Source: a virus. From it: a DNA stretch of 64,000 bases. The position numbers and the translations under genes were made by a program. Positions 25,287 to 48,238 of this stretch are shown piece after piece. The notes under the pieces were generated by a model that saw only the letters and a program-made list of their open reading frames with translations, had not been told where the DNA came from and made no database searches. The stretch spans positions 47,990-111,989 of IMG/VR virus record IMGVR_UViG_3300025543_005580, one strand, 5' to 3'. Every line of letters begins with the position of its first letter. The first letter of the stretch is position 1.

Positions 25287-26396
25287 TTACTTAATTCCGG
25301 CAAGTTTTTGCCATCTTGCAACTTGAGAATCAACCTCTACAATAAGTTTTTTAGTCGGGGCATTACCCATTGCTTTTGATGCTCTACCTAAATTTTCTTT
25401 AACAACAGACTTTGCTGGGGTTAAACCTTCGTTTAATGTTTCAAACACTAGTTTAACTTCTGTTACGGTAGTTGCTTTATCAAATGCAGCTAATACTTTT
25501 GCTTTTTGGCTTTCGCTCAAATTTTTACCTCTGAAGATTTTATTAACATAAAGGAGTTTAGCATTCAACATATTAACTTCCATTAATTCTGATTTTAGTG
25601 CTTCTACTTCTTCTTTAATTTTTTCAAGATCTTCTTTCTCGTCCTTCATACCGTCTTTGTAGCCTTCTTCTTCAGCATCTGTACGAGCATCTTCTTCAAG
25701 ATCTTCTTTCTCGTCCTTCATGCCGTCCTTGTAGCCTTCTTCCTCAGCGTCAGTACGAGCGTTTTCATCCACAGTTACTTCTTCTTCGTCTTCTACTTCA
25801 ATATCAACATCCATATCAGATTCTTCATCTTCTTCGTCTGCATCAATTTCACCTTCTAACTCACCAGCTTTAACCATGTCTGCGATTACGTCTTCAATGA
25901 ATGATTTAAGATCGTCTTCTGACATATCTTCAAGATCAATTTCTTCATCTTCGTCTTTGTCTTCTTCGTCCTCTTTCTCGTCTTCCATTCCGTCGAGGTA
26001 ACCCTCTTCTTCTGCGTCTGTACGAGCATCTTCATTTAATTCGTTGTCGAGTTCAGCTAATAATTCGTCTAAATCCATTTCGTCTACTTCTTCAGCTTCA
26101 TCTACTTCTTTAGTACCAAGTTTTTTCTTGCCCATTTGGCCTTCGTACCCTTCAGCATCATCTGCTTCATCCATTTTCTTAACTTCTTTAGCTTCTTCTT
26201 TAGCTTCATCAGTTTTCATTTTGGCTTCTTCTAAATCGTCCTCTTCATCCATTTCGGCTAACTTTGCAGATAGCTTTTCTTTTAGATAAGGTGAGAATGA
26301 TTCTTCAAGTGCCATTTTTGCATTTGCAATAGCTGTTTCTTTAACTGCTTTAGCATCTGCGATTGCTTCTTTTAACAAATTTCTATTTGTTGCCAT
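25287..26396 (-). CDS. gp22: Prohead core scaffold protein (gp22-like)
   Basis: The 369-residue protein is extremely acidic and helical, as is T4 gp22, the internal scaffold that is destroyed by gp21 before DNA packaging. I start it at 26396 (MATNRNLLKEAIADAK), because a good Shine-Dalgarno (GAGGAC, 26401-26406) precedes it; the frame extends 28 codons further but through leader sequence containing a hairpin. A 24-residue unit opening ARTDAEEEGYKDGMKDEKED is tandemly repeated, with a third divergent copy. Two L-N-E tripeptides (ELNEDA and TLNEGL) match the expected prohead protease specificity. The C-terminal ~100 residues are less acidic and probably contact the shell. Confidence 0.92.
   Translation of the reverse strand: MATNRNLLKEAIADAKAVKETAIANAKMALEESFSPYLKEKLSAKLAEMDEEDDLEEAKMKTDEAKEEAKEVKKMDEADDAEGYEGQMGKKKLGTKEVDEAEEVDEMDLDELLAELDNELNEDARTDAEEEGYLDGMEDEKEDEEDKDEDEEIDLEDMSEDDLKSFIEDVIADMVKAGELEGEIDADEEDEESDMDVDIEVEDEEEVTVDENARTDAEEEGYKDGMKDEKEDLEEDARTDAEEEGYKDGMKDEKEDLEKIKEEVEALKSELMEVNMLNAKLLYVNKIFRGKNLSESQKAKVLAAFDKATTVTEVKLVFETLNEGLTPAKSVVKENLGRASKAMGNAPTKKLIVEVDSQVARWQKLAGIK
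25624..25767 (-). repeat. 72-bp tandem repeat in scaffold gene
   Basis: Two adjacent 72-bp copies encode the 24-residue unit that opens ARTDAEEEGYKDGMKDEKED. A third, more diverged copy lies near 25950-26035 (with GYLDGMEDEKED). Confidence 0.85.
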
Positions 26397-26400
26397 TTTT

Positions 26401-26406
26401 GTCCTC
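26401..26406 (-). promoter_or_regulatory. Shine-Dalgarno that sets the gp22 start
   Basis: The minus strand reads GAGGAC-AAAA-ATG. It is one of the few recognisable ribosome binding sites in the window and supports the start at 26396 over the longer frame. Confidence 0.75.
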
Positions 26407-26473
26407 AATTTAATTGTTGGAAATACGTTTATTGTTGGCGAGTGCCGAAACGTAATAAATAATTTATTTACTG

Positions 26474-26494
26474 ATGCCATATAGGAAATGGCAT
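26474..26494 (-). other. Hairpin in the leader of the scaffold gene
   Basis: A perfect 7-bp inverted repeat (ATGCCAT/ATGGCAT) with a 7-base loop lies ~80 bases upstream of the gp22 start. A TATAAT hexamer (26495-26500) abuts it on the upstream side and may be a -10 element, although no -35 is evident. The 212-base gap here holds a terminator, this possible promoter and the hairpin, but no gene. Confidence 0.45.
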
Positions 26495-26537
26495 ATTATA
26501 CTAATACATATATGGGTATATTTCGAAGTCGCAAAAG

Positions 26538-26580: not shown

Positions 26581-26608
26581 TCATTTAATGCCTAAGGTAG
26601 CAGGCGAG

Positions 26609-27208
26609 TTAAATTACCGGACAAGTGCCATTAGCACACAGTATTTCCGATAATATTGTATTTACTTTTAAGTATTTATCTACTTGAACTTCTTGTCCTT
26701 CTTTAATCATATGCATGTATGATCCTGGGTTTGATGGGGTGGAAACAAAATCCCAACATAATAATTCGAAATCGTCTTGGACTTCTAATACACCATTTCT
26801 ATCCTCTAATGAACCCATACCTCGTGATGACACACCAACTTGTACGTTATTTTCAATTAATGCTTTAAGAATATTTCCTGATGTTGTAGGTAGTACTTCA
26901 ATTTTACCCATTACTTGATCTCCATCCCACCACATATCTCTAATAATATGGGATACATTTTTAAGATTGATGATAGAGGATTCTGGGTGGTCTAATTCAC
27001 CTGTTGCTCTATTTTCTTTTACAAGTACTCTGTATTTATCGATTTCACGTTCCCATAGATCTTTTGAATAATAACGACCATTGCCATTTTTTACTTCAGC
27101 AGTCGCTAAGATACCTTCAACTAATGGGTTACCTGATGGGGCTACCGATTCAGTTAAGCTAACTGGTTTAGCATTAAATGCTTGGGTTTCTATGAGGACC
27201 TGTTTCAT
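26609..27208 (-). CDS. gp21: Prohead core protease (gp21-like serine protease)
   Basis: This 199-residue protein (T4 gp21 has 212) carries the prohead protease signature: GELDHP with the candidate catalytic His74, then IRDMWWDGDQVMGKIEVL, and VGVSSRGMGSL with nucleophile Ser127 or Ser128. In T4 this enzyme trims the capsid, scaffold and internal head proteins at (L/I)-x-E sites inside the prohead. In this genome its likely substrates include the LNE-bearing proteins encoded farther upstream. It begins two bases after the stop of the 203-residue gene and is followed by a terminator. Confidence 0.94.
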   Translation of the reverse strand: MKQVLIETQAFNAKPVSLTESVAPSGNPLVEGILATAEVKNGNGRYYSKDLWEREIDKYRVLVKENRATGELDHPESSIINLKNVSHIIRDMWWDGDQVMGKIEVLPTTSGNILKALIENNVQVGVSSRGMGSLEDRNGVLEVQDDFELLCWDFVSTPSNPGSYMHMIKEGQEVQVDKYLKVNTILSEILCANGTCPVI

Positions 27209-27209
27209 A

Positions 27210-27821: not shown

Positions 27822-27824
27822 GAT

Positions 27825-27833: not shown

Positions 27834-28801
27834 TAATCTTTAAACATTTCGATTAAATCGTCTAAATAATCTACAGCTAAATCGGTGCCATAAACTACTT
27901 TAAAATCGGGGTTTTGTTTGTAATGGTCCATTGTTTTAATTTTAGCTTTAGCTAATAATGGAATGAGTTCATTTAGTTTATTTTCTACTTTATCAAATCC
28001 TAAGATACGAGAAGTAATGTGTTTTTTTAATGCTGAGCTTTCAATACCTAAATTATTAATATACTCCTCAACATTAATATCTGCTTCATTCAATGGAGTT
28101 GTTTTACTTTTAGATAAATCAACAATTGCTATTGTTTTTGAATCGTGAGGTTTAGGTGCTAATTTATATTTAAAAGTTTTAACTAATACATTATCTTTAA
28201 CTCCTTCAGGTCCAGCTGATGGACCTGGGCCCATTGTTGCTCCAGGACCTTCTTCTACTGGGGCTAATTTATATCCATACTTTTTAACTAGTATATCATT
28301 ATCAGTCCCATCTGCATCTTTATTTTTGTTAAAAGCGAATGGGGTATTATATGAACCAGCACCACCAGCAGTTGATATTTCTTCAACATCTTCTTCATTA
28401 ACAGACAATATATTTATTTCATCTAATAAGTTTTTAGCTTGTCTGTATTGGTCTGGGTAGTTTTTTCTAAGGTGGGTTCTATATTTATTAAATACACTTT
28501 TTAAATCATTAGCAATAGATTGAATACTTGCATCATCTTTTGCTTCTTTACTACTCATTAATATCTTTAAAGCTTTTACTGCTTGAGACATTTGTTTTAA
28601 TGAATCACCAAAACTAGCTAATTTAATAACATCATGGGAAACAGAATTAGTTTCAGTATCAATATCTCCTGTTTTAAAATAAGTATCTAAATCATCCGAG
28701 AAAAAATCAGTATCCTTGATAGGACCATATTGGTCCTCAAGGCGTTTGAGTAAAGCTGGATCTACATCTTTTGGTTTTAAAGATTCGTTTAGATTATTCA
28801 T
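27833..28801 (-). CDS. Putative head-associated protein of unknown function (322 aa)
   Basis: It opens MNNLNESLKPKDVDP, so an L-N-E tripeptide lies within the first six residues. Others are SVNEED (near 135) and PLNEADI (near 240). The chain is mostly helical and charged with a Gly/Pro-rich centre (EGPGATMGPGPSAGPEG). ILVKKYGYKLAP and VLVKTFKYKLAP form an imperfect internal repeat either side of it. The start overlaps the preceding gene by 8 bases. The position between portal and protease genes and the hydrophobic-N-E tripeptides suggest a gp21 substrate in the prohead. No family is recognised. Confidence 0.78.
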   Translation of the reverse strand: MNNLNESLKPKDVDPALLKRLEDQYGPIKDTDFFSDDLDTYFKTGDIDTETNSVSHDVIKLASFGDSLKQMSQAVKALKILMSSKEAKDDASIQSIANDLKSVFNKYRTHLRKNYPDQYRQAKNLLDEINILSVNEEDVEEISTAGGAGSYNTPFAFNKNKDADGTDNDILVKKYGYKLAPVEEGPGATMGPGPSAGPEGVKDNVLVKTFKYKLAPKPHDSKTIAIVDLSKSKTTPLNEADINVEEYINNLGIESSALKKHITSRILGFDKVENKLNELIPLLAKAKIKTMDHYKQNPDFKVVYGTDLAVDYLDDLIEMFKD

Positions 28802-29651
28802 TTGCTAATTTTAATTCTTCTAATAATTCACAATATTGTAAAAGATTAATTAAGTTATCATCATTAACATGAGATGTTTTACCTAATGGTTGTAATAAAT
28901 TAGCTACTTCATTAATTTTAATCTTAATTACTTGTGATTGAGTTTGAGTCGCTAAAATATTTAATTCTTCTTTTATTAAAGATATTTTATTATTATAATA
29001 TTCCTTTAATTTAGGAGTATTATCTACCGAATTAATAAATTCTCTAAGAATTTCTTTTTGATCATTATTTAATGTACCGTACTTATCATTAAATTTTTCT
29101 AAAAGGACTCTATATGTAAGAATTCTAATATCTTTATCATATGATTGAAATTCTTGAATCAAATCAGCTTCAACTTTTTTAGATTCGATAGGTGAAGCAA
29201 CCATATATTCTAATAAGGTTACTTTATTATCAATAATTTGATTAGGATTTGACAATACATCACTATTATATATTTCTAGAAGAGTATATAAAGAAGCATA
29301 TGTTTTATAACTTGGTAATTTAGTTTTAAAAAATTCTTCTAAGTTATAATGTTTAGATATTTCTTTAATTAAGTTATATTTTTGTCTTTTTAAAACACTA
29401 CGATTAAGTGAGCGTGAACTCTCAATAATTGTAGTTAAAATCATATCTGCTTTTGCTTCTGATATATTTTGGTGTTTTGAAATAGTCTCGTATAATTTAT
29501 ATTCTTTCCCTAATTCAGATTTTACAAAGAATTTTTTCATTATTCCAGACGCTTTTGAATTATTACCAGATAAAGTATCCGCCGTAATTTGTCTTACGAG
29601 TAATTCAAAAAGAAGCCCAGTATTTTTATACTTTGAATGTTTAATATTCAT
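28794..29651 (-). CDS. Conserved helical protein downstream of portal gene (285 aa)
   Basis: An all-helical, lysine/glutamate/leucine-rich protein that opens MNIKHSKYKNTGLLFELLVR. It has no membrane segment, signal peptide or cysteine pattern. The position immediately after the portal gene, before gp21, is where T4 keeps small core genes (67, 68). It is much longer than those, so orthology is not claimed. The ATATTTATA motif lies 15 bases upstream of the ATG, and a weak AGGGA abuts the start. I cannot name a function. Confidence 0.75.
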   Translation of the reverse strand: MNIKHSKYKNTGLLFELLVRQITADTLSGNNSKASGIMKKFFVKSELGKEYKLYETISKHQNISEAKADMILTTIIESSRSLNRSVLKRQKYNLIKEISKHYNLEEFFKTKLPSYKTYASLYTLLEIYNSDVLSNPNQIIDNKVTLLEYMVASPIESKKVEADLIQEFQSYDKDIRILTYRVLLEKFNDKYGTLNNDQKEILREFINSVDNTPKLKEYYNNKISLIKEELNILATQTQSQVIKIKINEVANLLQPLGKTSHVNDDNLINLLQYCELLEELKLANE

Positions 29652-29682: not shown

Positions 29683-31566
29683 TTATTGTTCCTTAATATT
29701 ACTTTCATCTAAAAGCGACTCGCCTTCATTCATCAAGCTTAATTTTTTATTAAGAGATTCAAATAATTGTTTATTTTTTAATTTTTCTTGTAATGCTAAT
29801 GGTGAACCCCCCTTATATTGTGGTTTAATTGAATCCGATTCGTTATCATCATCTTTCATTCCTTTAGCACCTAAACGATCTTTACCAAAATTATCATCTT
29901 GGGTATTACGATCTGTTGATTTTTCCTCAGGACGTCCTAATGGTGCTTTTTCATTATACCCATCAGGAACATTTGCTGGGTCTGAATCCATTCTACCAGT
30001 TCCATATAATGAAGCTAGATCATGTGGTGTACCATATGATTTACCTGTTTCTAACGGATCATTACCCTCTGCTTCAATTTGAGTTACGCGGAACTTACGT
30101 TTTTGGTCTTGTACAATTAAATCTCTATATTCATCATATTGATCAACACTGAAATGGAATACGTTTTCATATATCCAATCTGATGGGAATAATTTTGATT
30201 CCATCATTGAATTGGCTAAATCTACTTTTTGGGTTAATAACGCAATTTTTTCTTGATCATAAATAATAGAAGGTGTTGTTAAACTTAATTCAAAATTAGT
30301 TAACGATTCTTCAGTGTATCCTTGTGTATATAAATGCACTAACGCGATCTTATACAATTCCGATAATACAATACGTTGAATACGATCAATAGTACGAGCA
30401 AAACGTATATCTTCTGCTGCTAATGTAGCTTTACCAGTTAAATCTTTCTCATAACCCATAAATGCTTTAGGCACTTTAAGAGCAGCAAATAATTTATCTC
30501 TTAAATATTCAACATCTTGAATACCATCATATGTTAGTCCTGGTTGTGTTTCTATTTTGGTAGATGTATCATTACCTCTAATTGGAATATAAAAATCTTC
30601 CATTAGGTTTTGCATGTTATATTTTTGATTATATTCCCCACTTTGTGGATCTATTAATGGAGTACGTTTCATTGTAGAAATAGTTTTCTGCATGAAATTT
30701 TCTACTTCATTTGGTGGAATAGAACCAACATTAATATAGAATGTACGGCGATCAGGACTACGAGATATTCTATGAATTAACATAGCATCTTCCATCAACG
30801 CATATTGTTTATAAATTCTACGAGCTGGTTCAATATATGAGCGACCATAAGGTAAGAAATTAACATCCGTTAATAAACGGAAGTGAGCCATTTCGTAATT
30901 ATCGAAATAAATAGCATCATCGTTTTCTTGATATGTATTTGGAACACCATAATATCCTGAACCACCTGAATATATTCCTTCTGGGGAGTATTTAAATCTA
31001 ATAGTACTTGGGTTTTCTTGATCGTATGCTTCTTGTCTTTCAATATGGTATGCTGTATAAGGTATTACATTATAAACACCAAATTTTTCAGCAATTTCTA
31101 ATTTAAGGAAAAAATCACCATATTTGTTCATTTGGCGAATCCATGACCATAAATTAAATTCAATATTTAACACGTCATAAAATAGGTTATATAATATTTT
31201 TTGAATATTATCATCACTACTTCTAATTTGAAGCACCTCACCCATATCATTTTTTAATGTACACTCATCAGCAATAATATCAAGTGCTGAAGCAACAATA
31301 GCGTCATTATCCATTACATCATAATCTGAGTAGATAAATGTACGCATATATTGGTAATTCATGTTTAGCTGTTGGCCAAACAATGAAGTTGAAGAAGGAG
31401 AATAAATACGATTGTATTTATCCATCAATGAATTAGTTGCAATGTCTCCCGATTTTTGGATCGAATCAACGTCCATCACTTTAAGTTGGTTACCCCCTTG
31501 ATTTCTAATGATTACATCAGAAGAGAATAAACGTTGTAGTCGAGTAAATAATCTAGTATCTGCCAT
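29683..31566 (-). CDS. gp20: Portal vertex protein (gp20-like)
   Basis: The 627-residue protein (T4 gp20: 524) forms the dodecameric portal through which DNA is packaged. The features recognised are the N-terminal NQLKVMDVDSIQ region, a central RYIEPARRIYKQYALMEDAMLIHRISRSPDRR-type segment (seen here as YIEPARRIYKQYALMEDAML) and KVPKAFMGYEKDLTGKATLA, which are portal hallmarks in T4-like phages. The extra C-terminal ~100 residues are charged and end with an M-N-E tripeptide (612-614) in SLMNEGESLLDESN, a possible protease site. The ATATTTATA motif lies 18 bases upstream. Unlike T4, no gp18 or gp19 gene lies between gp17 and gp20. Confidence 0.95.
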   Translation of the reverse strand: MADTRLFTRLQRLFSSDVIIRNQGGNQLKVMDVDSIQKSGDIATNSLMDKYNRIYSPSSTSLFGQQLNMNYQYMRTFIYSDYDVMDNDAIVASALDIIADECTLKNDMGEVLQIRSSDDNIQKILYNLFYDVLNIEFNLWSWIRQMNKYGDFFLKLEIAEKFGVYNVIPYTAYHIERQEAYDQENPSTIRFKYSPEGIYSGGSGYYGVPNTYQENDDAIYFDNYEMAHFRLLTDVNFLPYGRSYIEPARRIYKQYALMEDAMLIHRISRSPDRRTFYINVGSIPPNEVENFMQKTISTMKRTPLIDPQSGEYNQKYNMQNLMEDFYIPIRGNDTSTKIETQPGLTYDGIQDVEYLRDKLFAALKVPKAFMGYEKDLTGKATLAAEDIRFARTIDRIQRIVLSELYKIALVHLYTQGYTEESLTNFELSLTTPSIIYDQEKIALLTQKVDLANSMMESKLFPSDWIYENVFHFSVDQYDEYRDLIVQDQKRKFRVTQIEAEGNDPLETGKSYGTPHDLASLYGTGRMDSDPANVPDGYNEKAPLGRPEEKSTDRNTQDDNFGKDRLGAKGMKDDDNESDSIKPQYKGGSPLALQEKLKNKQLFESLNKKLSLMNEGESLLDESNIKEQ

Positions 31567-37838: not shown

Positions 37839-38619
37839 AACGTGGTAAGCGACAAGACCAATATCCTGCCTTTGTTTTATCCTTTTTAGTTGAACATTTA
37901 TGACGTGCCGCAAATGCATTACGTGCTTTTTTATCGTTGATTTTAGCTCTTAAACCACCTGAACCGAAACGTACTGTTTTAATTTTCTTGGTTTTAGGAT
38001 CTTTAACATAAACCTTATATGCTTTACCTCCTGAAGAGTCACGCATTGGTTTATTTAATTTTTTATTGTCGTTTTTGGCTTCTTTAAGTACAAACTTATC
38101 CACCCAAACATCGTGGGTTAATCTATATAATACTTTGTCTGGTATTCTATCTGTGTATATTTTTATTACACCTTCAGTACCACTATGTCTAGTATGATTG
38201 ATATTCATATCTTGCAATTTATCAATCATAAGGTCATAATTTTCAGGTCTAACTTTTAATAGAGCATATTTTCTATCATCTTCTCCACCTTCTTCATATG
38301 TTCCTTCGTCTAACATAGGAAAATCTAATGGTACTTTTTTACCTTCAAACATGCCATAATGACCTAAATCTGTTTCTGTTAGAACAGCTAAATCATCTTC
38401 ATGAGTAATCTCTAAAATATTACGAGAATATAAAGAACGAGCTTCAGCCCATAAGTTAAAGTAACTATCCGAACCAGCACGATATAAGTGTTCTGTTAGC
38501 GGTTTATTAGCGTCCATATGGTATTTTAAACCTTCAGACAATATAGCACGTGGAGCTAAACTTTCGTTGAGCATTAACGTTGATTTTGTATCGCAAGTAT
38601 TACATCCGCAGTCGCACAT
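37792..38619 (-). CDS. Three-part phage protein with Cys-rich start and basic tail (275 aa)
   Basis: The start MCDCGCNTCDTKST packs four cysteines into nine residues. A SLAPRAILSEGLKYHMD region (about 20-107) and a PLDFPMLDEG segment are of a type conserved in T4-like marine phages. The last ~90 residues are very basic (VYVKDPKTKKIKTVRFGSGG then AARHKCSTKKDKTKAGYWSC), another domain found at the ends of unrelated phage proteins and plausibly nucleic-acid or zinc binding. M-L-N-E (16-19) and I-L-S-E are candidate protease sites that would free the body from the Cys-rich leader. Function unknown. Confidence 0.8.
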   Translation of the reverse strand: MCDCGCNTCDTKSTLMLNESLAPRAILSEGLKYHMDANKPLTEHLYRAGSDSYFNLWAEARSLYSRNILEITHEDDLAVLTETDLGHYGMFEGKKVPLDFPMLDEGTYEEGGEDDRKYALLKVRPENYDLMIDKLQDMNINHTRHSGTEGVIKIYTDRIPDKVLYRLTHDVWVDKFVLKEAKNDNKKLNKPMRDSSGGKAYKVYVKDPKTKKIKTVRFGSGGLRAKINDKKARNAFAARHKCSTKKDKTKAGYWSCRLPRYAKLLGLKSNFGGFW

Positions 38620-39830: not shown

Positions 39831-40124
39831 TTATTTTACTATTACTTTAAATAAACCTGGGTGTTCTTTTTCGAAATATTTAGCTTGATTATAGCTACGA
39901 CCAAAAACAAATTCATCTAATTCATCTGCATCAGTATATGTCGTAACATCTACTTCACCATCTTCTATTTCATCTTCAGTACCAAATTCATATGGAGAAT
40001 CTGCTAATTCACCTGACTCAACGTCAAAAGCTATTTCTGGGGTTAGAAGTTCAATGTGGTAATCCACTTCTTCTTCAAATAAGCGGCCTTCAGCTAAATA
40101 TTTTTTTAAATTGAAATTGTTCAT
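39831..40124 (-). CDS. Small acidic protein with shared N-terminal tag (97 aa)
   Basis: It opens MNNFNLKKYLAEGRLFEEE, one of six copies of a near-identical N-terminal peptide in this block. The rest is highly acidic (DEIEDGEVDV) and unrelated to the other tagged proteins. The tag resembles T4 capsid-targeting sequences: an amphipathic N-terminus ending in L-x-E sites (LAE, LFE) where gp21 would cut. The upstream leader is A-rich (minus strand AAAATAAAAC before the ATG) with no Shine-Dalgarno. Its likely role is an internal head protein; its function after ejection is unknown. Confidence 0.75.
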   Translation of the reverse strand: MNNFNLKKYLAEGRLFEEEVDYHIELLTPEIAFDVESGELADSPYEFGTEDEIEDGEVDVTTYTDADELDEFVFGRSYNQAKYFEKEHPGLFKVIVK

Positions 40125-40152: not shown

Positions 40153-40683
40153 TTAGATGATATAATACAAATCGTCTTTTAACATTTTCCTCATTTCATC
40201 TTTACTGAATTGAGGGATTGGTTTTCCATTAGCATCCATTTTAAATGCAGGAAGGAATTCTCTTCCATCTTCATCAGATAATTGTGGTATAGCATAAATT
40301 TCAATATCACCATTACTATGGATTTCTACATACCCCTCATCTCCAACAGCATACATACCAGGTTTAACCATTTGAGCTACCATATCAAAATCGTAGGGAT
40401 AATCATTTTCTTCAGCAAATTCTTTTTCGTATACATTAGAATTAAAGCTAAAATTATTATAAAATTTATTAAATTCTTCTTCGTTCCAAGGGCCTGATTG
40501 GTTATAGCCATATATATCATCATTTACTCCATCATAATATCCTGCACCACCTGAACCTACTCCCCCTAAAAGACCATCATCAAATCTAAATCCTGCTTTT
40601 ACGAGTACATCTTCAATGTCTCTTAGTTCTTCTTTTAATAAGCGACCTTCGGCTAAATATTTTTTTAAATCAAAGTTATCCAT
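40153..40683 (-). CDS. Tagged putative internal head protein (176 aa)
   Basis: It opens MDNFDLKKYLAEGRLLKEE, the shared tag, with L-A-E and L-K-E as candidate cut sites. The body is acidic and tyrosine/glycine-rich (DDGLLGGVGSGGAGYYDG, then a YVEIHSNGDIEIYAIPQL beta hairpin). The beta motif is of a kind also seen in the 438-residue tagged protein (EGEIEIISAE). No family is recognised. It is flanked by A-rich spacers of 28-32 bases. The antisense of its first 45 bases is nearly identical to that of the other tagged genes, so the tag is also a DNA-level dispersed repeat. Confidence 0.75.
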   Translation of the reverse strand: MDNFDLKKYLAEGRLLKEELRDIEDVLVKAGFRFDDGLLGGVGSGGAGYYDGVNDDIYGYNQSGPWNEEEFNKFYNNFSFNSNVYEKEFAEENDYPYDFDMVAQMVKPGMYAVGDEGYVEIHSNGDIEIYAIPQLSDEDGREFLPAFKMDANGKPIPQFSKDEMRKMLKDDLYYII

Positions 40684-40715: not shown

Positions 40716-41273
40716 TTATTCGCTTGCTAAATCCATAGCATATTGTTCAACTTCATCGGCATCATACCCAAAATCTTCAACATCTTCTATAAATTCTGCT
40801 TTACCATTAGTAAGTATATTAGCTAATACAGTACCTGCTTCTCCTAAAGCATACTCAAAATCTTCCATTTTACTAAGATCCATTATAGCAGATTTAAAAC
40901 TTTTTTTCTGTATGGGGGTAAGAAAAATTGGTTTTGATTCTTCTTTTTGTTTTTGAATTGGTTGAGATGGTTGAGATGGTGGAGTAAGTTTTTGTAAATT
41001 TAAATCGTTATCCCAAGTTAATTCATAATCCATTAATTTTCCTGTATTAGTTTCCGCTGTAACATTAGCCTGAATTGCTTTATGCTGTATCTTGTTGTTT
41101 TTGGAAGATGTAACCCTAATAGATTGTATAGGATCTAATCCGTTTTGTTCATTATATGTTGATATTATTGGGAATGCCATTTTTTCAATTTCCTCCATAC
41201 CAACATTCACAAAGTTTTCTTCTTCAAATAAGCGACCTTCAGCTAAATATTTTTTTAAATCAAAGTTGTTCAT
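40716..41273 (-). CDS. Tagged putative internal head protein (185 aa)
   Basis: It opens MNNFDLKKYLAEGRLFEEE, the shared tag. The body has a small alpha/beta segment (residues ~25-95), a proline/glutamine linker (PPSQPSQPIQKQKEE) and an acidic helical C-terminus (FIEDVEDFGYDADEVEQY). After the tag the sequence is unrelated to the other tagged proteins. The most likely role is a protein packed into the head and trimmed at L-F-E (15-17). Its function is unknown. Confidence 0.75.
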   Translation of the reverse strand: MNNFDLKKYLAEGRLFEEENFVNVGMEEIEKMAFPIISTYNEQNGLDPIQSIRVTSSKNNKIQHKAIQANVTAETNTGKLMDYELTWDNDLNLQKLTPPSQPSQPIQKQKEESKPIFLTPIQKKSFKSAIMDLSKMEDFEYALGEAGTVLANILTNGKAEFIEDVEDFGYDADEVEQYAMDLASE

Positions 41274-41292: not shown

Positions 41293-41814
41293 TTATACTT
41301 CTATATCTGTTGTATCGTCAACTTCTACATCTATTTCTTCAGTATCACTACCTTCTCCTGGTGATGAGGTTGTTGATGCGGTATCTGATGCTTCTAAAGC
41401 TGCTTCATCTCCCATTTCAGCATCGCTGTTACCATAAGATAACATACGAGCTATAGCTTCAATAGCTCTTTCTTCCTCATTTAAATTAAGTAAATAATAT
41501 TTTTTACCTTCAATTTTAGCAATCCAACTACGAACTGCCCAAATTAAATAAAATACTTCATCATTTGCTAGTACAATTCTAAATGTAGTAGGTTTTGGAG
41601 CTACCCATTGGATATCTTTAACGAATGTTTCAAATTGATCCGTTAGCATATCAACTAATATTCTCTTTAGTTCTGGGAATTTTAAGAGCATTGGAAATTT
41701 TTCAATTTCTAAATCTATAGTGGAATTACCCCCATCCAAATCAACGAATGATCCTGGTTTGTATACTTGGCTTACAAGTCCTTTGATTTTATCTCTTAAT
41801 TCTGATTTAGTCAT
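41293..41814 (-). CDS. Unknown protein with MTKSE-type start and acidic tail (173 aa)
   Basis: The N-terminus MTKSELRDKIKGLVSQVYK is a weak match to the MKKSE module of the 120- and 438-residue proteins. Residues ~30-125 form a mixed alpha/beta domain (with FRIVLANDEVFYLIWAVRSW and KKYYLLNLNEEERA). The tail is Ser/Thr/Asp/Glu-rich and low in complexity. It shares one base with the next upstream gene (TAATG). I recall no family; context suggests a head-internal or scaffold-associated protein. Confidence 0.72.
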   Translation of the reverse strand: MTKSELRDKIKGLVSQVYKPGSFVDLDGGNSTIDLEIEKFPMLLKFPELKRILVDMLTDQFETFVKDIQWVAPKPTTFRIVLANDEVFYLIWAVRSWIAKIEGKKYYLLNLNEEERAIEAIARMLSYGNSDAEMGDEAALEASDTASTTSSPGEGSDTEEIDVEVDDTTDIEV

Positions 41815-43157
41815 TATTTAGACTTTAATTTTTCTGCTAATCTTTTAGCAATTTTTTCGGCTTTACTTAAATCGCCTTTATTCATTGCTTTTCTAGCTTG
41901 TTGGAGTTGATAAGTTTTAGATATATCTCCTTTATGTTTATTCAATGCCTTTTGAATAGCAGAAGCTAACATATCAGCTTTACCTGGGGTTTCTTCGTTT
42001 ATTTCAATATCATCAACAACATCAACTTCCATTTCAGGGGTGATATCATCCATTCTATCTACTACAGCATCAATTGCTGGTTCTTTTAGTTCAAAATCTA
42101 AGTAATGCTTAGCACCTACAATAGCTGATTTAGCATTTGAGATTTTTGATTGCCACCAATGTGGTAAATCAACTTCTCCTTTACCTTCAAAATCATCCAT
42201 CATTTGGTATAATTCCATAGCATATTTTCCAATACGATATAGATCACCTTTTAACATATGAGGTTCGTTATCTTGATGACCAAGATCCATATCTTCTTGC
42301 ATCATGTCCTCATCTTCATCTTCTTCCTCACCGTATTCTTCAATTTCGTCTACGATTGAAGCAATTGTAGTATCGTATCTGTTTGAGCTAGAACCTAAAT
42401 CGAAAGCACCATATGCGTCTCCTTTACTAAGGTAAGATGGGAAGTTTTGTGCGATAATATCTCTGGCTTGATCTCCTAATACTTGGAGTTCATCTAAGAT
42501 ATTTCTTAGCTCCATAAGAGCTTCTACTTTATCTTCATTTAATGCATTTTCACTTAAAAATTTAGCTTTTGCTGCTTTAAAATCACCTTTGTATAGTTGT
42601 TTAACTATTTTACGTCCTAAAGTTTCTAATTGATCTAAATCTAAAGAATGAGGTTTACCAAATCCTTTTAAATATGCCGCTCCAATGTCTCCATACTCTG
42701 CAGGATCAATTACATCTTCAACACCTTCTTTTAGATCACCTAATTCCTTAGCTGCTCTAACAAGATCATTTCTTGCTTCATCTTCACCAACACCTCTGTA
42801 TTTGGCTATCTTTTTAATAGCCATTTTAGCAATGCGTTTTTCTTCAGATGAAGAACTTTCATCTAGGTTTTTTTCAATTGCCGCGCCACGTTTTTCTTCG
42901 TAATCTGAAAGTTTACCATCTTTATTTAGATCGGCTGCTTTAGGATTTTTAAGAGAATCTTTAATCATCTCTCTAACTTTATCTTGATTCATATTTTCAG
43001 TTTTTTTCTTAGCCATATTAGTTGCGCGACCATACATTACTGCTTCCGCGTCCTTACCATAACGTTTAACGAAGGACCTCTTATTTGTTTTGAGGTCCAT
43101 TATCGCATCTTCTCGATTTTCGAGTTCTTGTTTAGTAAGTTCGCGTTCGTTAAGCAT
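41814..43157 (-). CDS. Lysine-rich putative internal head protein (447 aa)
   Basis: I start it at 43157, giving MLNERELTKQELENREDAIM. The frame extends 39 codons further but overlaps the small gene at 43168-43323. The opening, with KRYGKDAEAVMYGRATNMAK near residue 30, is typical of a protein type I recall from marine T4-like phages. An ADLNKDGKLSDYEE segment (about 75-88) is an EF-hand-like calcium loop. L-N-E, A-L-N-E-D and I-N-E-E are spread along the chain and would cut it into pieces. The C-terminal 60 residues are basic (GDLSKAEKIAKRLAEKLK). Its likely role is internal head protein or polyprotein. Confidence 0.78.
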   Translation of the reverse strand: MLNERELTKQELENREDAIMDLKTNKRSFVKRYGKDAEAVMYGRATNMAKKKTENMNQDKVREMIKDSLKNPKAADLNKDGKLSDYEEKRGAAIEKNLDESSSSEEKRIAKMAIKKIAKYRGVGEDEARNDLVRAAKELGDLKEGVEDVIDPAEYGDIGAAYLKGFGKPHSLDLDQLETLGRKIVKQLYKGDFKAAKAKFLSENALNEDKVEALMELRNILDELQVLGDQARDIIAQNFPSYLSKGDAYGAFDLGSSSNRYDTTIASIVDEIEEYGEEEDEDEDMMQEDMDLGHQDNEPHMLKGDLYRIGKYAMELYQMMDDFEGKGEVDLPHWWQSKISNAKSAIVGAKHYLDFELKEPAIDAVVDRMDDITPEMEVDVVDDIEINEETPGKADMLASAIQKALNKHKGDISKTYQLQQARKAMNKGDLSKAEKIAKRLAEKLKSK

Positions 43158-43167
43158 GTGTTTTTTT

Positions 43168-43323
43168 TTACTTGTGTCCTCTTTTGAAGTCAGCGGATAA
43201 GTTTTTGATTTTGTTAGCGGCAGATCTACATCTTCCTTTAGCTGCAGCTGATGTTTTGTCAATTTCTGCTTCAATCAATAATACTTGTTCTTTGATTCCT
43301 TCTAATAATTCTTTAGTTTCCAT
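43168..43323 (-). CDS. Small Hc1-like basic protein (51 aa)
   Basis: The ATG is at 43323 and the TAA at 43168-43170. The 51 residues start METKELLEGIKEQVLLIEAE and end NLSADFKRGHK: an acidic N-terminal helix, then a basic, alanine-rich helix (SAAAKGRCRSAANKIK). The layout resembles the short histone H1-like Hc1 proteins of Bacteroidota and their phages, which bind DNA. An A-rich leader precedes it, and the next gene starts 10 bases after its stop. The frame is clean, but no alignment was possible. Confidence 0.72.
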   Translation of the reverse strand: METKELLEGIKEQVLLIEAEIDKTSAAAKGRCRSAANKIKNLSADFKRGHK

Positions 43324-43370: not shown

Positions 43371-44687
43371 TTATAATAATTTGTTTATCAAGCCATCGTT
43401 ACCTCTACGAACTGTAGATTCGTTAATTGACTCATTATTATCTACTTTAGAAACGTGTGCTCTAGTAAAGTAAGTAATTGTATTACCAATTTGATCAGTT
43501 AGTTTTTCATCTCCTAATTTTTCAGCTTCTTCTTGAGCTTTCATTAGTAAACTTTGAACTGCGATTTCATCTTCACCTTCACCTGGCATACTACCTTTTA
43601 CGTCAATATCGGTTTCAACTGATTCATCATCAACTTCAACATCTTTTTCAATGTCAACATCAACTTTTTCGTTGTCTTCAACATCTACTTCTTCTGCTTC
43701 ATACATATCATCTCCTTCATCCATATCTTCTATTTCGGCTACTGGGTCATATGCATCTGTAGTATCATTGATTGTGATTTCAGCTTCAGCCATCATAGCT
43801 GCTTTAATCATTTCTTTTAACTCTGATTTTTTCATTTTAGTTTTATTTTCGTTTAATTCAGTAGGCATTTCTTCATCTACTATTTCTTCTTTGGTATATG
43901 ATTTTCCACACATTTTTTCGTATAGTTTTTCCATCTTGGCTTTTCGTCTTTCAAGATCTTTAACTTCACGCTGCATTTCTTTCATTTTTTTCTTATCAAC
44001 TAATTGCGATAAGTTATCATCCTCAGTAACCATTGAAATTCTTTGGTTTTTAGATTCGATCATTTCATCAATAGCTGCAATTTTAGCTTCTAAAGCAACA
44101 ACTTGTGATTGTTTTTCGATTTCAGCTAATTTGCTGTCTACTGTTTCTTTTTTCATTTTATTTGATTTTGTTTTTTTAATTTCTTCTTCTTTAATTTCTT
44201 CCATGTAGTCGCTCATTTCTTTTCTGCGCTCCATATAATCGGTTTCTACATCATCAGTCATACCAAGATCCGCTTTGGAATCTTCGGCTGAAATGATTTC
44301 AATTTCGCCTTCAGGGGTAATATAAGCTACTTTAGCATTTCTTGAAGCAGCATTAGTAACTAAATAACCATCACCTTCAGGACGGATTACAAATGAACCA
44401 CCAGCATAATCACCTAAATAATTAGCAATACCGAATCCTCTACTGTCTTCCCAATCATCACCTGGTGTGTTAGGTCCTGCTTCTACATCTAAATCAAAAC
44501 CACCACCACGAGGATCAGCTTCAATTGAGTTAGGTGTAATTATATATTTAAGATCTAATTCATTATCTTCAGCTGTAAATTCATCAGCAACTGCTTGAGC
44601 TACTTTTTGAACTAAATCATCAGTAAGTTCTACTTCGTTTAGTAGCTTACCTTCAGCTAAATATTTTTTATAATTAAAATTATCCAT
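43371..44687 (-). CDS. Tagged coiled-coil protein, likely two-part fusion (438 aa)
   Basis: It opens MDNFNYKKYLAEGKLLNEV, the shared tag with a perfect L-N-E at 16-18. Residues ~20-135 form a small alpha/beta domain. Residues ~145-265 are a charged coiled coil. After a T-E-L-N-E-N site comes MKKSELKEMIKAAMMAEAE, the same kind of start as the 120-residue protein, then a very acidic tail and NNESINEST near the C-terminus. It therefore looks like two internal proteins joined and separable by protease. The ATATTTATA motif lies 16 bases upstream. Confidence 0.8.
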   Translation of the reverse strand: MDNFNYKKYLAEGKLLNEVELTDDLVQKVAQAVADEFTAEDNELDLKYIITPNSIEADPRGGGFDLDVEAGPNTPGDDWEDSRGFGIANYLGDYAGGSFVIRPEGDGYLVTNAASRNAKVAYITPEGEIEIISAEDSKADLGMTDDVETDYMERRKEMSDYMEEIKEEEIKKTKSNKMKKETVDSKLAEIEKQSQVVALEAKIAAIDEMIESKNQRISMVTEDDNLSQLVDKKKMKEMQREVKDLERRKAKMEKLYEKMCGKSYTKEEIVDEEMPTELNENKTKMKKSELKEMIKAAMMAEAEITINDTTDAYDPVAEIEDMDEGDDMYEAEEVDVEDNEKVDVDIEKDVEVDDESVETDIDVKGSMPGEGEDEIAVQSLLMKAQEEAEKLGDEKLTDQIGNTITYFTRAHVSKVDNNESINESTVRRGNDGLINKLL

Positions 44688-44714: not shown

Positions 44715-45008
44715 TTATTTTTTAGACTGATACGTCCCTTTCTTGTATTTTGCAGATTTTGTGTTTTTAACAAATTGTTTACCTTTTTTATCACCACGGA
44801 CTTTTTTAGCTACTGTAGCTTTTCTTTCTGCCTTTGTTAAGGATTGAGCTTTTTTTCTAGGCAAACATCTAGTAGTTGCTTTACCTTTTTTCATAGTACC
44901 ACAAGGGCCAGTAATGTTACCAGCCGTATCAATTCGAACCCAATCCTCTTTTTTAAACCAATCGCGAAGGGATTCTGAAATTATTTCTTGTAGTCTTTCG
45001 TTTGTCAT
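44715..45008 (-). CDS. Small basic phage protein with GPCG/CLPRKKA motifs (97 aa)
   Basis: It begins MTNERLQEIISESLRDWFKK. The EDWVRIDTAGNITGPCGTMK then RCLPRKKAQSLTKAER pattern, followed by a strongly basic C-terminus (KGKQFVKNTKSAKYKKG), belongs to a short domain I recall as widespread in T4-like marine phages, of unknown function. Two cysteines (about residues 36 and 48) may bind metal. An I-S-E site in the first 12 residues fits the prohead protease rule. It shares one base with the upstream membrane protein gene (TAATG). It probably coats or condenses DNA, by composition only. Confidence 0.8.
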   Translation of the reverse strand: MTNERLQEIISESLRDWFKKEDWVRIDTAGNITGPCGTMKKGKATTRCLPRKKAQSLTKAERKATVAKKVRGDKKGKQFVKNTKSAKYKKGTYQSKK

Positions 45009-45589
45009 TATGAAACTGCGTCTTCAACAGCACCTTTTAAAATAGTATTTACTTCAATACCTTTAATTGCTGCTTTTAAACTATATATTCCACCTTTAAG
45101 ATAACTTGCTTTTTTAAGATAAGCAACAGCTTCACCTCCTGCTTGACCTGCCATTAAGAAGATTATAACAGCATATAATACATCGGATATCCATTTTTGT
45201 TTTTTGGTGTCTTTAGTAAAGATACTTACTATTCGTTTAATTGGAGCTTTAAATGCTTCTTCATTTTTATGAGTAAAATCATAAATTTTCTTGGCGGCCT
45301 CTTCACCTTTACCAAAATTATGTTTAGCAAATTGTTTTTTAGCAAATTTAGAAAGCATATTAGCTATTGTATTAGATAATAAAATATATCCTATAATACT
45401 AACAGTAATTGCTACCTCATTGATTTCTTTATCGGACTTTTGAATTTCTTCTTTATGGTCTTCTAATTCATCTTTAATTTCATCTGCTAGATCATCTGCA
45501 AATGCATCTAATTCAGCACCAAATTGATCTTCTTCACTTTCAAATAGCTTGCCTTCAGCTAAATATTTTCTTAAATCGAAATTATCCAT
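45008..45589 (-). CDS. Tagged protein with two membrane-type helices (193 aa)
   Basis: It opens MDNFDLRKYLAEGKLFESE, the shared tag (L-F-E at 15-17). After an acidic helix (res 22-50) come a hydrophobic helix (about 58-80, AITVSIIGYILLSNTIANML), a basic region, and a second hydrophobic helix (about 137-158, VLYAVIIFLMAGQAGGEAVA). The combination of a capsid-targeting-like tag and membrane segments is striking: such a protein could be carried in the head and inserted into the host membrane on infection. No family is recognised. Confidence 0.77.
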   Translation of the reverse strand: MDNFDLRKYLAEGKLFESEEDQFGAELDAFADDLADEIKDELEDHKEEIQKSDKEINEVAITVSIIGYILLSNTIANMLSKFAKKQFAKHNFGKGEEAAKKIYDFTHKNEEAFKAPIKRIVSIFTKDTKKQKWISDVLYAVIIFLMAGQAGGEAVAYLKKASYLKGGIYSLKAAIKGIEVNTILKGAVEDAVS

Positions 45590-45619: not shown

Positions 45620-46015
45620 TTAACTATTTTCCCAGTCTTTTTTTCTTCTATCTACTTCTTGGTAAAAAGCTTCTTCTCCTTTTTCTTTCCAACTTAAATA
45701 ATCAGCATATTTTTCAGGAAAACTAACTATCCATTTATTAATAGCATCATAAGCCTTTTTAACAGATTCAGGTGAAGGATTTATTCTAGGAACAGAGACA
45801 TCAAATTGGCCATCCCACCATCCTGTCATATCATCATTCCAATCGATTCTGAATACATCTGGAAATCGCATAGTTCTAAGTTTTGCTCCTGTTTTGATTT
45901 CTAAATCTTTAGCCATTTGTTCAAAGTCATTAAACATTTCTTTTCTTGAAGGAGTAGTTTCTTGTTCAAATAATCTACCTTCAGCTATATATTTTTTTAA
46001 ATCGAATGTATCCAT
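45620..46015 (-). CDS. Tagged putative internal head protein (131 aa)
   Basis: The start chosen is ATG 46015, giving MDTFDLKKYIAEGRLFEQE, the shared tag. The frame extends 47 codons further upstream, but that part overlaps the 594-residue gene in another frame and is not needed. The body has tryptophan-rich segments (RIDWNDDMTGWWDGQFDVSV) and a helical C-terminus (SWKEKGEEAFYQEVDRRKKD). It is unrelated to the other tagged proteins after residue ~20. Function unknown. Confidence 0.75.
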   Translation of the reverse strand: MDTFDLKKYIAEGRLFEQETTPSRKEMFNDFEQMAKDLEIKTGAKLRTMRFPDVFRIDWNDDMTGWWDGQFDVSVPRINPSPESVKKAYDAINKWIVSFPEKYADYLSWKEKGEEAFYQEVDRRKKDWENS

Positions 46016-46016
46016 T

Positions 46017-47801
46017 TTATTTTTTCTTTTTTCTTCCAGACATTTGTCCTTTACATACTTTAACTGCACGACCTGATAAATAAGCAGATGATTTTTCTCC
46101 TGCTGCTTTACGTCTTTTGATATATGCCTTGCCTTTAGGACATAATTCTTCTTCAATTACACCTTCACCTAATTTAATAGTTTCGGCTAATTCTTGAGCC
46201 ACTGATTTTTTCTTTTCATCACTACTATGACCAAAGGTTTTATGAACTAGTTTATCTAATTCTTTGTGAAATTCATTTTCCTCGTCTTCTGTAGCTTCAT
46301 TTACACCATCAAAATCTCTTTGTTTTAAAGCAGCCATAATAGCGTATACAGCATCTTGTTCGCTATAATCGTATCGTTTAGCCATTGCCTTAATAAAACG
46401 ACTTACTGCTTTAGATACTTCAGGATTAAGTGATTCTTTTATTTCACCTAACATGTTTGGATCCATATTAATGAAATCATCTGATACAGCAAATACTTGG
46501 ACAACTCCATTTTCTTTATCTACTATGTCGATGTCTTCTAAATCATATTCTGCTTTCAAATCTCTAGCTACATCACCAGCTAATCGCATAGCTTCAGCAG
46601 CACTTTCTCTTCGGATTTGACCAGTCATTGTTTCTTTACCTAATGCAATTGATGAACCACCTGGTCCTAAATCATATTCGATATTAACATATAGGAAGTT
46701 AGGGAATTTTTTATCTTTAACATAGCTAGGCATAGATACTCTTGCTCTAGAAGCTTCAGCTATTGATTTACCTCGTTGTTTAGCTTTTCTAACTAATGAA
46801 TTCCAATTAGATAAATCATATTCATCCCATGGTTCAACCTCCATTTTATTGAATGTTTTTTCTTGACCTTCTACTGGTTTGCTATTTAGGTAATGTGTTT
46901 CGTTTTGAGTTAATTCAAAGAATCTATCTACTTGATCTTGGGTAGGCATTTTGCTTTCACCTTCAGCTATTGCTTGATCATAGGTCATTTCTTTTCTACC
47001 TGATAGTTTAGCTATTACTTTATCAATACGATTTAATTTACTACCATATTCATCAGCAATTGGCCCACCTTCTGGTTCAGCTTCTTGCTCCATATCACGC
47101 ATTAATTGTGCTCTTTCTTTTTTGAGGAATGCTATTTTTTTAGCATTATCAAAGAATTTATCGTTACCATCATCACCAGCATTAGCAGCTCTCATTTTAG
47201 CTAATTTATCTTTAGCAGCTCTCATTTTCATAAGAACTGGGTCATTGATGTCCATTTCTTCTAAATTGCCTGCTTGAAGTTCGTACCCCCAACGCTTAAG
47301 TTTAGCTTCTAATTCAGCTTTATCTTTAGCTTCAAAATCGAATGAATCGTTTACACCATAGTAACCCATACCTCTTTTATAGATTTTAGTTTCACCAGCA
47401 TCACCTTTAGGATCATCATAGATAGCAATTTCACCATCGGTAAATGTACCTTCGTTTACTGATTCTTCATAGTAATCTTTATGACCACCGTTTACTCTAA
47501 AAATATCGCTATATTCTCTTCTTGAATAATTTGATGAATCACCTGAAATAGTGATACCTGAATTTCCACCCCAATTCAAACCTGCTGAATCTAGTCTTTG
47601 ACCAATGTCATCAACAATTTCATCTGGGGAATCTTGGCCTGTAATAATATCAATTTCATCCCATTTTGGAACTAACATTATAGTGAATGGGTAGGTTGAT
47701 TTGCTTAGTATTTTAACTACTTTATCAAAATCTTCTTTTGTTACCTTATTTTCTTCTAAAGGTTTAGAAAAGAATTCTTGTATTTTTTTAATATCTTCCA
47801 T
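46017..47801 (-). CDS. Large multi-segment phage protein, candidate polyprotein (594 aa)
   Basis: It opens MEDIKKIQEFFSKPLEENKV. V-N-E tripeptides at 115-117 (EESVNEGTF) and near 494 (DGVNEATED) separate segments of different character: an N-terminal alpha/beta domain, a lysine/glutamate helical middle (ADEYGSKLNRIDKVIAKLSG), a domain with FLYVNIEYDLGPGGSSIAL, and a basic C-terminus LCPKGKAYIKRRKAAGEKSS ending RKKKK. That Cys-containing tail is one I recall at the ends of many T4-like phage proteins. It shares one base with the upstream gene. Its function is unknown; the inferred role is an internal head polyprotein. Confidence 0.78.
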   Translation of the reverse strand: MEDIKKIQEFFSKPLEENKVTKEDFDKVVKILSKSTYPFTIMLVPKWDEIDIITGQDSPDEIVDDIGQRLDSAGLNWGGNSGITISGDSSNYSRREYSDIFRVNGGHKDYYEESVNEGTFTDGEIAIYDDPKGDAGETKIYKRGMGYYGVNDSFDFEAKDKAELEAKLKRWGYELQAGNLEEMDINDPVLMKMRAAKDKLAKMRAANAGDDGNDKFFDNAKKIAFLKKERAQLMRDMEQEAEPEGGPIADEYGSKLNRIDKVIAKLSGRKEMTYDQAIAEGESKMPTQDQVDRFFELTQNETHYLNSKPVEGQEKTFNKMEVEPWDEYDLSNWNSLVRKAKQRGKSIAEASRARVSMPSYVKDKKFPNFLYVNIEYDLGPGGSSIALGKETMTGQIRRESAAEAMRLAGDVARDLKAEYDLEDIDIVDKENGVVQVFAVSDDFINMDPNMLGEIKESLNPEVSKAVSRFIKAMAKRYDYSEQDAVYAIMAALKQRDFDGVNEATEDEENEFHKELDKLVHKTFGHSSDEKKKSVAQELAETIKLGEGVIEEELCPKGKAYIKRRKAAGEKSSAYLSGRAVKVCKGQMSGRKKKK

Positions 47802-48238
47802 TATTTAAATGCGTTTATTGCTCTTTCGTCTTTAAAATGATCTTGGACTGCTTTTAATGCTACCTCTCTATCTTCAGGGGATAAAGCATTGAATCTAGCT
47901 AATATTCTATCGTTATTGTCTTTTGCTCTTCTATACTGACCACCATCATCTATGTACTCATAGTAAGCATCGTATGATTTAAAGTATTTTAAAAAATCAT
48001 CTAATGATGATAAATCTTCGTTTTCATTAATAGATTCATTCATGCCTAATTCAGCATGTAACACTTCCATAAAAGGACCAAAATTATGAGAGCCATACTC
48101 GTCTTTAAGAATAGCGGCTACACCAATTGCAAAATCTTTGTATGATAAATTTTCATCAACAGAAGCAATAGCATTATCTATCGCTTTTGCTACTTCATTT
48201 TCTACAAGATCAGAATAATATTCTTTAAGGTTTTTCAT
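47801..48238 (-). CDS. Acidic helical protein with NESINE motif (145 aa)
   Basis: It begins MKNLKEYYSDLVENEVAKAI. Around residues 64-75 GMNESINENED contains M-N-E and I-N-E in tandem, dividing the protein into two helical halves, each with aromatic and acidic residues (FLKYFKSYDAYYEYIDDGGQ). The N-terminus, with L-V-E at 11-13, resembles the targeting-peptide style of its neighbours. It overlaps the preceding small gene by 14 bases and shares one base with the following one. No family is recognised. Confidence 0.74.
   Translation of the reverse strand: MKNLKEYYSDLVENEVAKAIDNAIASVDENLSYKDFAIGVAAILKDEYGSHNFGPFMEVLHAELGMNESINENEDLSSLDDFLKYFKSYDAYYEYIDDGGQYRRAKDNNDRILARFNALSPEDREVALKAVQDHFKDERAINAFK

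Follow-up and report, generated by a model that had tools for sequence, protein, structure and literature searches.

The stretch of DNA analysed here (the window) is the final 64 kb (64,000 nucleotides, positions 47,990 to 111,989) of the 111,989-base virus record IMGVR_UViG_3300025543_005580. Its head genes lie on the minus strand at ∼23.6-53.2 kb of the window and encode a prohead protease of the T4 gp21 family, a gp23-type capsid protein and a series of proteins in which the tripeptide hydrophobic-Asn-Glu recurs. Among named phages, the nearest relatives identified are the Flavobacterium phages immuto, whose portal, annotated as T4-like Gp20, matches with 59% identity over 98%; environmental relatives run into the hundreds (at least 598 portal-encoding stretches). 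A preliminary description of positions 25287-48238 had claimed that these tripeptides recur in head-region proteins and seem rare in tail and fibre proteins, and had read them as possible prohead-protease cut sites. The genes central to the analysis are:

23602-25260 (-): major capsid protein, T4 gp23 family (Pfam PF07068, E 2.2e-76)
26609-27208 (-): S77 prohead protease, T4 gp21 family, 199 aa, the proposed cutter (Pfam PF03420, E 7.4e-30)
49637-51988 (-): 783-residue modular polyprotein, outside the range described earlier

The protease scored 104.4 bits against its profile (curated cut-off 27) and matches the T4 prohead core protein protease 5jbl (E 6.6e-16). Residues L72-P75 (LDHP, including H74) and S127-G130 (SSRG) are at least 98% conserved in 55 relatives; we take the His and Ser of these two motifs to be the catalytic residues.

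Motif counts were made in 33 head-block open reading frames (ORFs; 9121 aa, terminase left out; a few overlap or have doubtful starts) and in 13 tail/fibre ORFs (9917 aa), and expected counts came from 1000 within-protein shuffles. Below, Φ denotes a hydrophobic residue ([LIVM]), ΦNE is [LIVM]-Asn-Glu, and P3, P2 and P1 are the hydrophobic residue, the middle residue and Glu. The head block holds 26 ΦNE against 10.7 ± 3.2 after shuffling, a count attained in 1 of 1000 shuffles, while the reversed motif is at expectation (10 vs 10.6). LNE alone occurs 15 times (3.8 expected), and ΦNE followed by [AGSN] 14 times (2.5 expected; tail/fibre 1 vs 1.3). In the 28 ORFs of the range described earlier the count is 21 vs 8.5, and the excess continues beyond its end in the 783-residue protein (4 sites) and a 125-residue protein (1). 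Tail/fibre proteins contain 4 ΦNE vs 3.7 after shuffling, so the rarity there is what composition predicts. The head-block excess is 2.5-fold in the window and is also found in three relatives (immuto 2.2-fold, G001 3.1-fold, G003 2.7-fold); six control sets range from 0.5- to 1.6-fold (immuto replication, middle and tail; G000 1-48k; G001 1-60k; window tail). All Φ-x-Glu tripeptides are raised in the head block as well (246 vs 188), and the excess is thus not exclusive to Asn. We concluded that the excess of hydrophobic-Asn-Glu in head-block proteins is real, as had been claimed. The sites are distributed over the scaffold (2), the portal C-terminus (1, residue 612) and the 322- (4), 275- (1), 438- (3), 594- (2), 145- (2), 285- (1), 173- (1), 193- (1) and 486-residue (3) proteins. 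Every protein named in the preliminary description carries the motif, with two corrections: the 322-residue protein has four sites rather than three, and the "447-residue" protein is a TTG-started 486-residue ORF (41814-43274) that had been read from Met40.

The position of the motif is most telling in the 783-residue protein, whose modules and junctions are as follows:

Residues 1-191: module N, nucleotidyltransferase
Residues 197-322: module B, zincin-like
Residues 327-388: module Z, zinc-ribbon-like
Residues 389-616: module C, with HExxH
Residues 625-783: module D, 5'-nucleotidase
51404-51412 (-): LNE 193-195, N/B junction; column kept in 35/38; predicted local distance difference test score (pLDDT) <50 at 188-202
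51014-51022 (-): LNE 323-325, B/Z junction; pLDDT <50 at 286-328
50816-50824 (-): LNE 389-391, Z/C junction; pLDDT <50 at 362-393; anchored C starts 23/23
50123-50131 (-): MNE 620-622, C/D junction; pLDDT <50 at 613-626

Module N has Foldseek matches to nicotinate mononucleotide and phosphopantetheine adenylyltransferases (best E 3.7e-6); Foldseek with the whole 783-residue model gave support for the nucleotidyltransferase only. Module D matches a 5'-deoxyribonucleotidase (PHROG 2643, 4e-27), module B shows HExxH and ExEA in 35/35 aligned rows, and module C carries a second HExxH; NCBIfam and Pfam matches of the relatives' modules were weak and all below cut-off. The modules touch nicotinamide adenine dinucleotide (NAD) and nucleotide chemistry. 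All four junctions carry the protein's four ΦNE, with a VKE (189-191) just upstream of the first, and in a low-confidence AlphaFold2 model all four sites fall in segments with pLDDT <50, as do 28% of residues.

In relatives, the order of the modules is shuffled (N-B, N-C-B-D, N-B-Z-D, N-Z-B-D, N-B-C-D and others), and D also occurs alone. At least one module was found in 101 distinct ORFs and two or more in 69, giving the multi-domain, shuffled-order character of polyvalent proteins; most multi-module architectures include B. Filtering left 54 non-redundant ORFs with more than one module (of 69; window included) and 128 junctions. They contain 113 ΦNE in 12,876 residues of linker vs 24 in 25,561 residues of module, a 9.3-fold difference in density (reversed motif 3.1-fold, E-x-Φ 1.2-fold). 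Among the 66 short junctions (6 to 45 residues), 37 contain ΦNE (3.4 expected) and 65 contain Φ-x-Glu (30.4 expected), vs a single one with the reversed motif (3.4 expected). Φ-x-Glu stands directly before the module start in 23/23 anchorable C starts and 33/33 anchorable B starts, with Asn at P2 in 17 and 28 of them; these counts cover only the starts that could be anchored among 81 non-redundant ORFs. Modules that stand alone behave alike: the solo nucleotidase has a leader motif in 21/22 distinct N-termini (the exception starts almost at the domain), and the single solo C module has LFE^GK upstream. Since the motif is found both in leaders of solo modules and in linkers, an upstream motif tends to accompany the module, fused or free. 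In the immuto polyprotein (L001 25541-28264), an additional domain linked via LAE^A stands N-terminal to the nucleotidyltransferase; the nucleotidase of immuto is encoded by a gene of its own. Mosaic boundaries outside the 783-residue family show a modest excess (ΦNE 126 vs 86, Φ-x-Glu 626 vs 482, reversed 41 vs 34). Three proteins without HExxH but with many ΦNE (L144 12277, nine; L112 10488, six; L001 18864, seven) are likely to be further polyproteins.

The second context of the motif is the N-terminal leader. A leader resembling M[DN]NFDLKKYLAE^G is common to six proteins of the window, and a kinase-like protein has a different one:

43371-44687 (-): 438-residue protein, NFxxKKYLAE leader; LAE 10-12 at 44652-44660, LNE 16-18 at 44634-44642
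45008-45589 (-): leader-family protein, MDNFDLRKYLAE^GK, shared leader
45620-46015 (-): leader-family protein, MDTFDLKKYIAE^GR, the sixth, re-started by inspection at an internal ATG
40716-41273 (-): leader-family protein, MNNFDLKKYLAE^GR, shared leader
40153-40683 (-): leader-family protein, MDNFDLKKYLAE^GR, shared leader
39831-40124 (-): leader-family protein, MNNFNLKKYLAE^GR, shared leader
52363-53160 (-): zeta-toxin/P-loop kinase-like protein, leader MILLTELLKE^A (Pfam PF06414, E 1.3e-17)

In the 438-residue protein, Φ-x-Glu is kept at 10-12 in 45/54 and at 16-18 in 46/55 relatives, within flanks of 0.22 and 0.09 identity. For the kinase, Φ-x-Glu precedes the P-loop in 44/44 scored rows (48 aligned; the P-loop pattern was found in 44), this kinase is found with either of two leader classes, and P2 is mostly Lys. 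Loose patterns identified further classes (KKSEL..IKE, LL.ILKE, RMQKLAGI..E). Among 809 non-redundant genes, hydrophobic-[NKSTA]-Glu reaches 2.65 per 100 residues at positions 1-10 and 2.04 at 11-20, vs 0.90 beyond residue 100; the reversed EN-hydrophobic shows no clear rise (0.05 and 0.17 vs 0.12), and E-x-hydrophobic gives 1.84 and 2.55 vs 2.02. [LIVM][NKSTA]E lies within residues 5-32 of 15/33 head-block proteins (5.6 after shuffling) and 2/13 tail proteins (1.0). A short N-terminal leader that ends at a protease motif and is common to unrelated proteins, the hallmark of T4-type capsid targeting, is thus found here.

Conserved Φ-x-Glu tripeptides are also present in the protease itself and in the capsid protein:

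27149-27157 (-): LTE, protease residues 18-20, possible N-terminal self-cleavage site
26699-26707 (-): IKE, protease residues 168-170, possible C-terminal self-cleavage site
25081-25089 (-): VTE, capsid-protein residues 58-60, probable maturation site

Φ-x-Glu is kept at protease residues 18-20 in 55/55 relatives (P2 T38 S8 H5 N2 I1 A1) and at 168-170 in 54/55 (P2 K33 R11 N7 S2 T1). At capsid-protein residues 58-60 all 43 rows have VTE, VVE, VME, VIE or VSE, and Asn is never at P2. T4 capsid protein sheds 65 N-terminal residues (PMC9958956).

These columns bear on the claim that the protease prefers hydrophobic-Asn-Glu, a rule narrower than that of T4. We scored tripeptides in poorly conserved surroundings of the head-block alignments that are kept with a variable middle residue. 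Φ-x-Glu is kept in this way in 26/82 low-identity contexts, vs 3/62 for Φ-x-Asp, 9/67 for Φ-x-Lys, 1/32 for Φ-x-Asn, 0/19 for Φ-x-Gln and 7/57 for E-x-Φ. In the linkers of the polyprotein family, ΦNE occurs 112 times vs 15.8 in shuffled linkers (7.1-fold), followed by Lys (2.2-fold), Glu (1.9-fold), Gln (1.9-fold), Pro (1.6-fold) and Thr (1.6-fold) at P2; aromatic and small residues are avoided at P3 ([FYW]NE 1 vs 6.0, [AG]NE 1 vs 6.8). The preference for Asn and the presence of an S77 protease stand, and the narrow rule is rejected because P2 changes at sites with conserved P3 and P1: in the capsid protein, protease and portal it is T, V, S, K or D. Because the cuts of T4 gp21 follow L/I-x-E (PMC9026906), the rule here looks T4-like, not narrower; from these alignments it looks like hydrophobic-x-Glu with Asn favoured, not required, at P2. 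A recombination signal at the DNA level was considered for LNE and rejected: its codons are near background usage and seven different nonamers occur in 65 sites, one of them mildly in excess (43/65), which leaves no clear DNA-level signal.

Several other window proteins were followed through the alignments of relatives:

25287-26480 (-): scaffold-like acidic protein, LNE at 148 and 349
28085-28093 (-): LNE 237-239 of the 322-residue protein
28908-28916 (-): INE 246-248 of the 285-residue protein, kept in 62/63 relatives
38563-38571 (-): LNE 17-19 of the 275-residue protein
29725-29733 (-): portal MNE 612-614, in SLMNEGE, named in the preliminary description
29704-29712 (-): portal LDE 619-621, conserved alternative

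Eight ΦNE sites pass a column-by-column conservation filter: 322-residue 237, 285-residue 246, 275-residue 17, 486-residue 41, 438-residue 16, 193-residue 56, 783-residue 193 and 125-residue 7. The module-anchored test adds a ninth, at residue 389 of the 783-residue protein. At residue 237 of the 322-residue protein, Φ-x-Glu is kept in 40/51 relatives (P2 W/N/F/K/R/M, flank identity 0.15), and at its residue 126 in 65/66; the 275-residue site is kept in 10/10 (P2 N6 T3 A1, flank identity 0.21) and residue 51 of a 203-residue protein in 50/50. The scaffold keeps Φ-x-Glu at 148 in 22/23 relatives and at 349 in 15/25, and both sites fail the filter in the larger set. It also contains three ARTDAEEEGYxDGMxDEKED repeats, each with Φ-x-Glu (LNE, VDE, LEE) directly upstream, as if designed for chopping into similar pieces. 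Its C-terminus ARWQKLAGIK resembles the leader RMQKLAGI of head-block proteins (L098 14640-15167, L001 23256-23720), possibly as a shared core-binding element. The preliminary description had the portal trimmed at SLMNEGE; as a conserved cut this is rejected, with Φ-x-Glu there in only 7/59 ungapped relatives. The nearby LDE is kept in 44/44 (P2 D42 N2, near-fixed Asp), so the portal may yet be trimmed; the T4 portal is listed as uncleaved (PMC9026906).

Taken together, we consider it probable that a good share of the hydrophobic-x-Glu tripeptides, ΦNE included, are cut by the S77 prohead protease in leader-tagged cargo and in polyproteins. Cleavage, packaging and injection are steps that we infer from the enrichment, position and conservation of the motif, the shuffling of modules, the protease family and the low-confidence linkers of the model. 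The protease would recognise [LIVM]-x-Glu, with Asn favoured at P2 and Gly, Ala, Ser or Asn often following the cut. Two kinds of cargo are proposed. In one, a single protein carries at its N-terminus a short leader with the motif at its end, comparable to a T4 capsid-targeting sequence; the other consists of polyproteins such as the 783-residue one, with enzyme modules separated by motif-bearing linkers. Once the prohead is assembled, the protease would strip off the leaders, cut the scaffold into pieces, trim both the capsid protein and its own chain, and divide the polyproteins into separate enzymes that would remain with the DNA. The motif in joined-enzyme chains of head-block proteins suggests that the head protease splits such chains into separate enzymes. 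With somewhat less assurance, we favour a general picture in which a large T4-related phage group, with an isolated member on Flavobacterium (immuto_2-6A, host Flavobacterium sp. LMO8), packs enzyme chains into the prohead, where the prohead protease splits them at cut sites that punctuate interchangeable modules. If the cut sites are punctuation, any module placed behind Φ-x-Glu in a leader or linker would gain both packaging and release.

An unlikely alternative is that the zincin-like metallopeptidase modules inside the polyprotein, and not the prohead protease, cut the junction motifs. Module B, with its invariant HExxH and ExEA, is part of most multi-module architectures, one relative gave a weak, below-cut-off match of B to the putative metallopeptidase DUF6782, and zincin processing of polyvalent proteins has been proposed (Iyer et al., 2017, PMC5512222). 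However, the 779 genes without HExxH still contain 485 ΦNE vs 211 expected (reversed motif 242 vs 205), and 50 of the 67 genes with at least three ΦNE lack HExxH (6.7 genes with that many expected among all 809). Conserved Φ-x-Glu is also seen in the capsid protein, the protease and stand-alone kinases. As a general explanation, zincin self-processing is disfavoured by this enrichment in genes without HExxH. Quite unlikely, too, is that the tripeptide is a structural or compositional trait of flexible acidic linkers and helix ends rather than a protease site. The greater density of the reversed motif in linkers than in modules, its 1.9-fold excess over shuffled linkers and the 2.8-fold excess of Φ-Asn-Gln would fit such a trait; it is countered by the much larger ΦNE excess over shuffled linkers, the avoidance of aromatic and small P3 residues, the single reversed motif in the short junctions, the retention of P3 and P1 while P2 changes, and the LNE codons. 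A protease that requires hydrophobic-Asn-Glu and also trims the portal at SLMNEGE is very improbable: Asn is the commonest P2 residue in linkers and at anchored module starts, but other residues fill P2 in the capsid protein, protease, portal and kinase leaders, and the portal MNE is not conserved.

A number of results weigh against assigning the tripeptides to the prohead protease. The column filter, which also skips sites within well-conserved surroundings, retains just 8 of the 26 window sites, and 17 remain unsupported or unsettled; what supports the claim that the tripeptides mark prohead cut sites is, besides the S77 protease, their concentration at leaders and module junctions, where a maturation protease would act. 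In the 322-residue protein, sites 134 (0/55) and 4 (2/26) are not conserved, and residue 276 drifts between LNE, LNQ and LNA and is therefore probably no cut site; sites 278 and 421 of the 438-residue protein fall in gaps of all 9 relatives. The poor conservation of the portal MNE belongs here as well. In linkers, Φ-x-Glu without Asn is raised only 1.2-fold, the reversed motif is itself above shuffled expectation, and Φ-Asn-Gln (14 vs 5.1) finds no account in a strict Glu rule. E-x-Φ occurs in 42 of the 66 short junctions (30.3 expected) and at mosaic boundaries 542 times vs 492, and, as many linkers are long, the figure of 127/128 junctions with Φ-x-Glu is too favourable. Two small controls of the variable-middle test were higher (Φ-x-Pro 4/15, Φ-x-Phe 3/17). 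Outside the head genes, ΦNE[GASN] is in unexplained excess in the non-head G000 1-48k (8 vs 3.1), and ΦKE is in excess in window tail proteins (6 vs 1.1). The AlphaFold2 model rests on 13 sequences, with mean pLDDT 65 and a predicted template modelling score of 0.31.

Other features of the window include, within the head block, a protein resembling flavin adenine dinucleotide/NAD-binding proteins (35322-36704; VGAGVAGVNAATKL, by inspection), with matches in 24 relatives' loci and no obvious leader. Basic Cys/Lys-rich C-terminal tracts (e.g. ELCPKGKAYIKRRK...KVCKG) occur in the head-block proteins 46017-47801, 37792-38619 and 44715-45008; Φ-x-Glu lies upstream of the first such tract in 3/3 instances, and the tracts may be released DNA-binding peptides. 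A pattern search for further small modules gave 0 instances with the first pattern and 3, 12 and 6 with others, and carries no evidential weight. A single 4333-residue ORF (3619-16620) lies downstream of the head genes. A collagen-like, probably tail protein (16721-18748) is made mostly of GTSGTSG repeats.

The proposed system shares with T4 maturation a homologous protease, a gp23-type capsid protein whose putative propeptide has 60 residues (65 in T4), a gp20-type portal, an acidic scaffold-like protein in which several sites are candidates, and short leaders. Unlike T4, P3 here may also be V or M, Asn is favoured at P2, and the phage has many leader-bearing proteins and multi-enzyme polyproteins with a site at each junction. 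Like T4 capsid-targeting sequences, the leaders are short, N-terminal, end at the protease motif and are common to unrelated proteins (PMC9026906, PMC9958956); several unrelated leader classes (NFDLKKYLAE, KKSEL..IKE, LL.ILKE, RMQKLAGI..E) are found in this one phage group, unlike in T4. Polyvalent proteins (PMC5512222) share the disparate, shuffled enzyme domains per chain, the zincin-like domains and the late/head gene context, but the junctions here carry a prohead-protease-like motif, whereas zincin self-processing was proposed there. In phiKZ, SPN3US and 201phi2-1 many head proteins are likewise cut after a short x-E motif, with several cuts per propeptide and a self-cleaving protease; the giant phages differ in their motifs (A-x-E in SPN3US, S-x-E for phiKZ), protease family (S80) and long propeptides in place of multi-enzyme chains (PMC10052503, PMC5694885). 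In the text of PMC5512222, "NMN" does not occur and "nucleotidase" occurs once, in another context. The accessible parts of PMC7824862 and PMC9503650 mention polyvalent proteins with no link of processing to a prohead protease, and the word "cleaved" does not occur in PMC7077304. Titles and abstract openings of the open-licence literature gave no paper in which a prohead protease cuts polyproteins between their modules, which is weak evidence of absence.

The larger find is a motif that punctuates exchangeable enzyme modules, one that would extend T4 maturation, capsid-targeting sequences and polyvalent proteins. If true, it would describe a modular virion-cargo system driven by capsid maturation and resembling the polyproteins of RNA viruses. 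Virion cargo would become readable from sequence, since packed proteins and their cut positions could be predicted wherever hydrophobic-x-Glu marks a leader or the edge of a module, and this would turn the question of what T4-like phages inject into a testable list. Polyvalent-type phage proteins would gain a processing enzyme besides their own zincins, and the harmless shuffling of their domains would be explained. More speculatively, the NAD/nucleotide chemistry of the modules may bear on defence and counter-defence.

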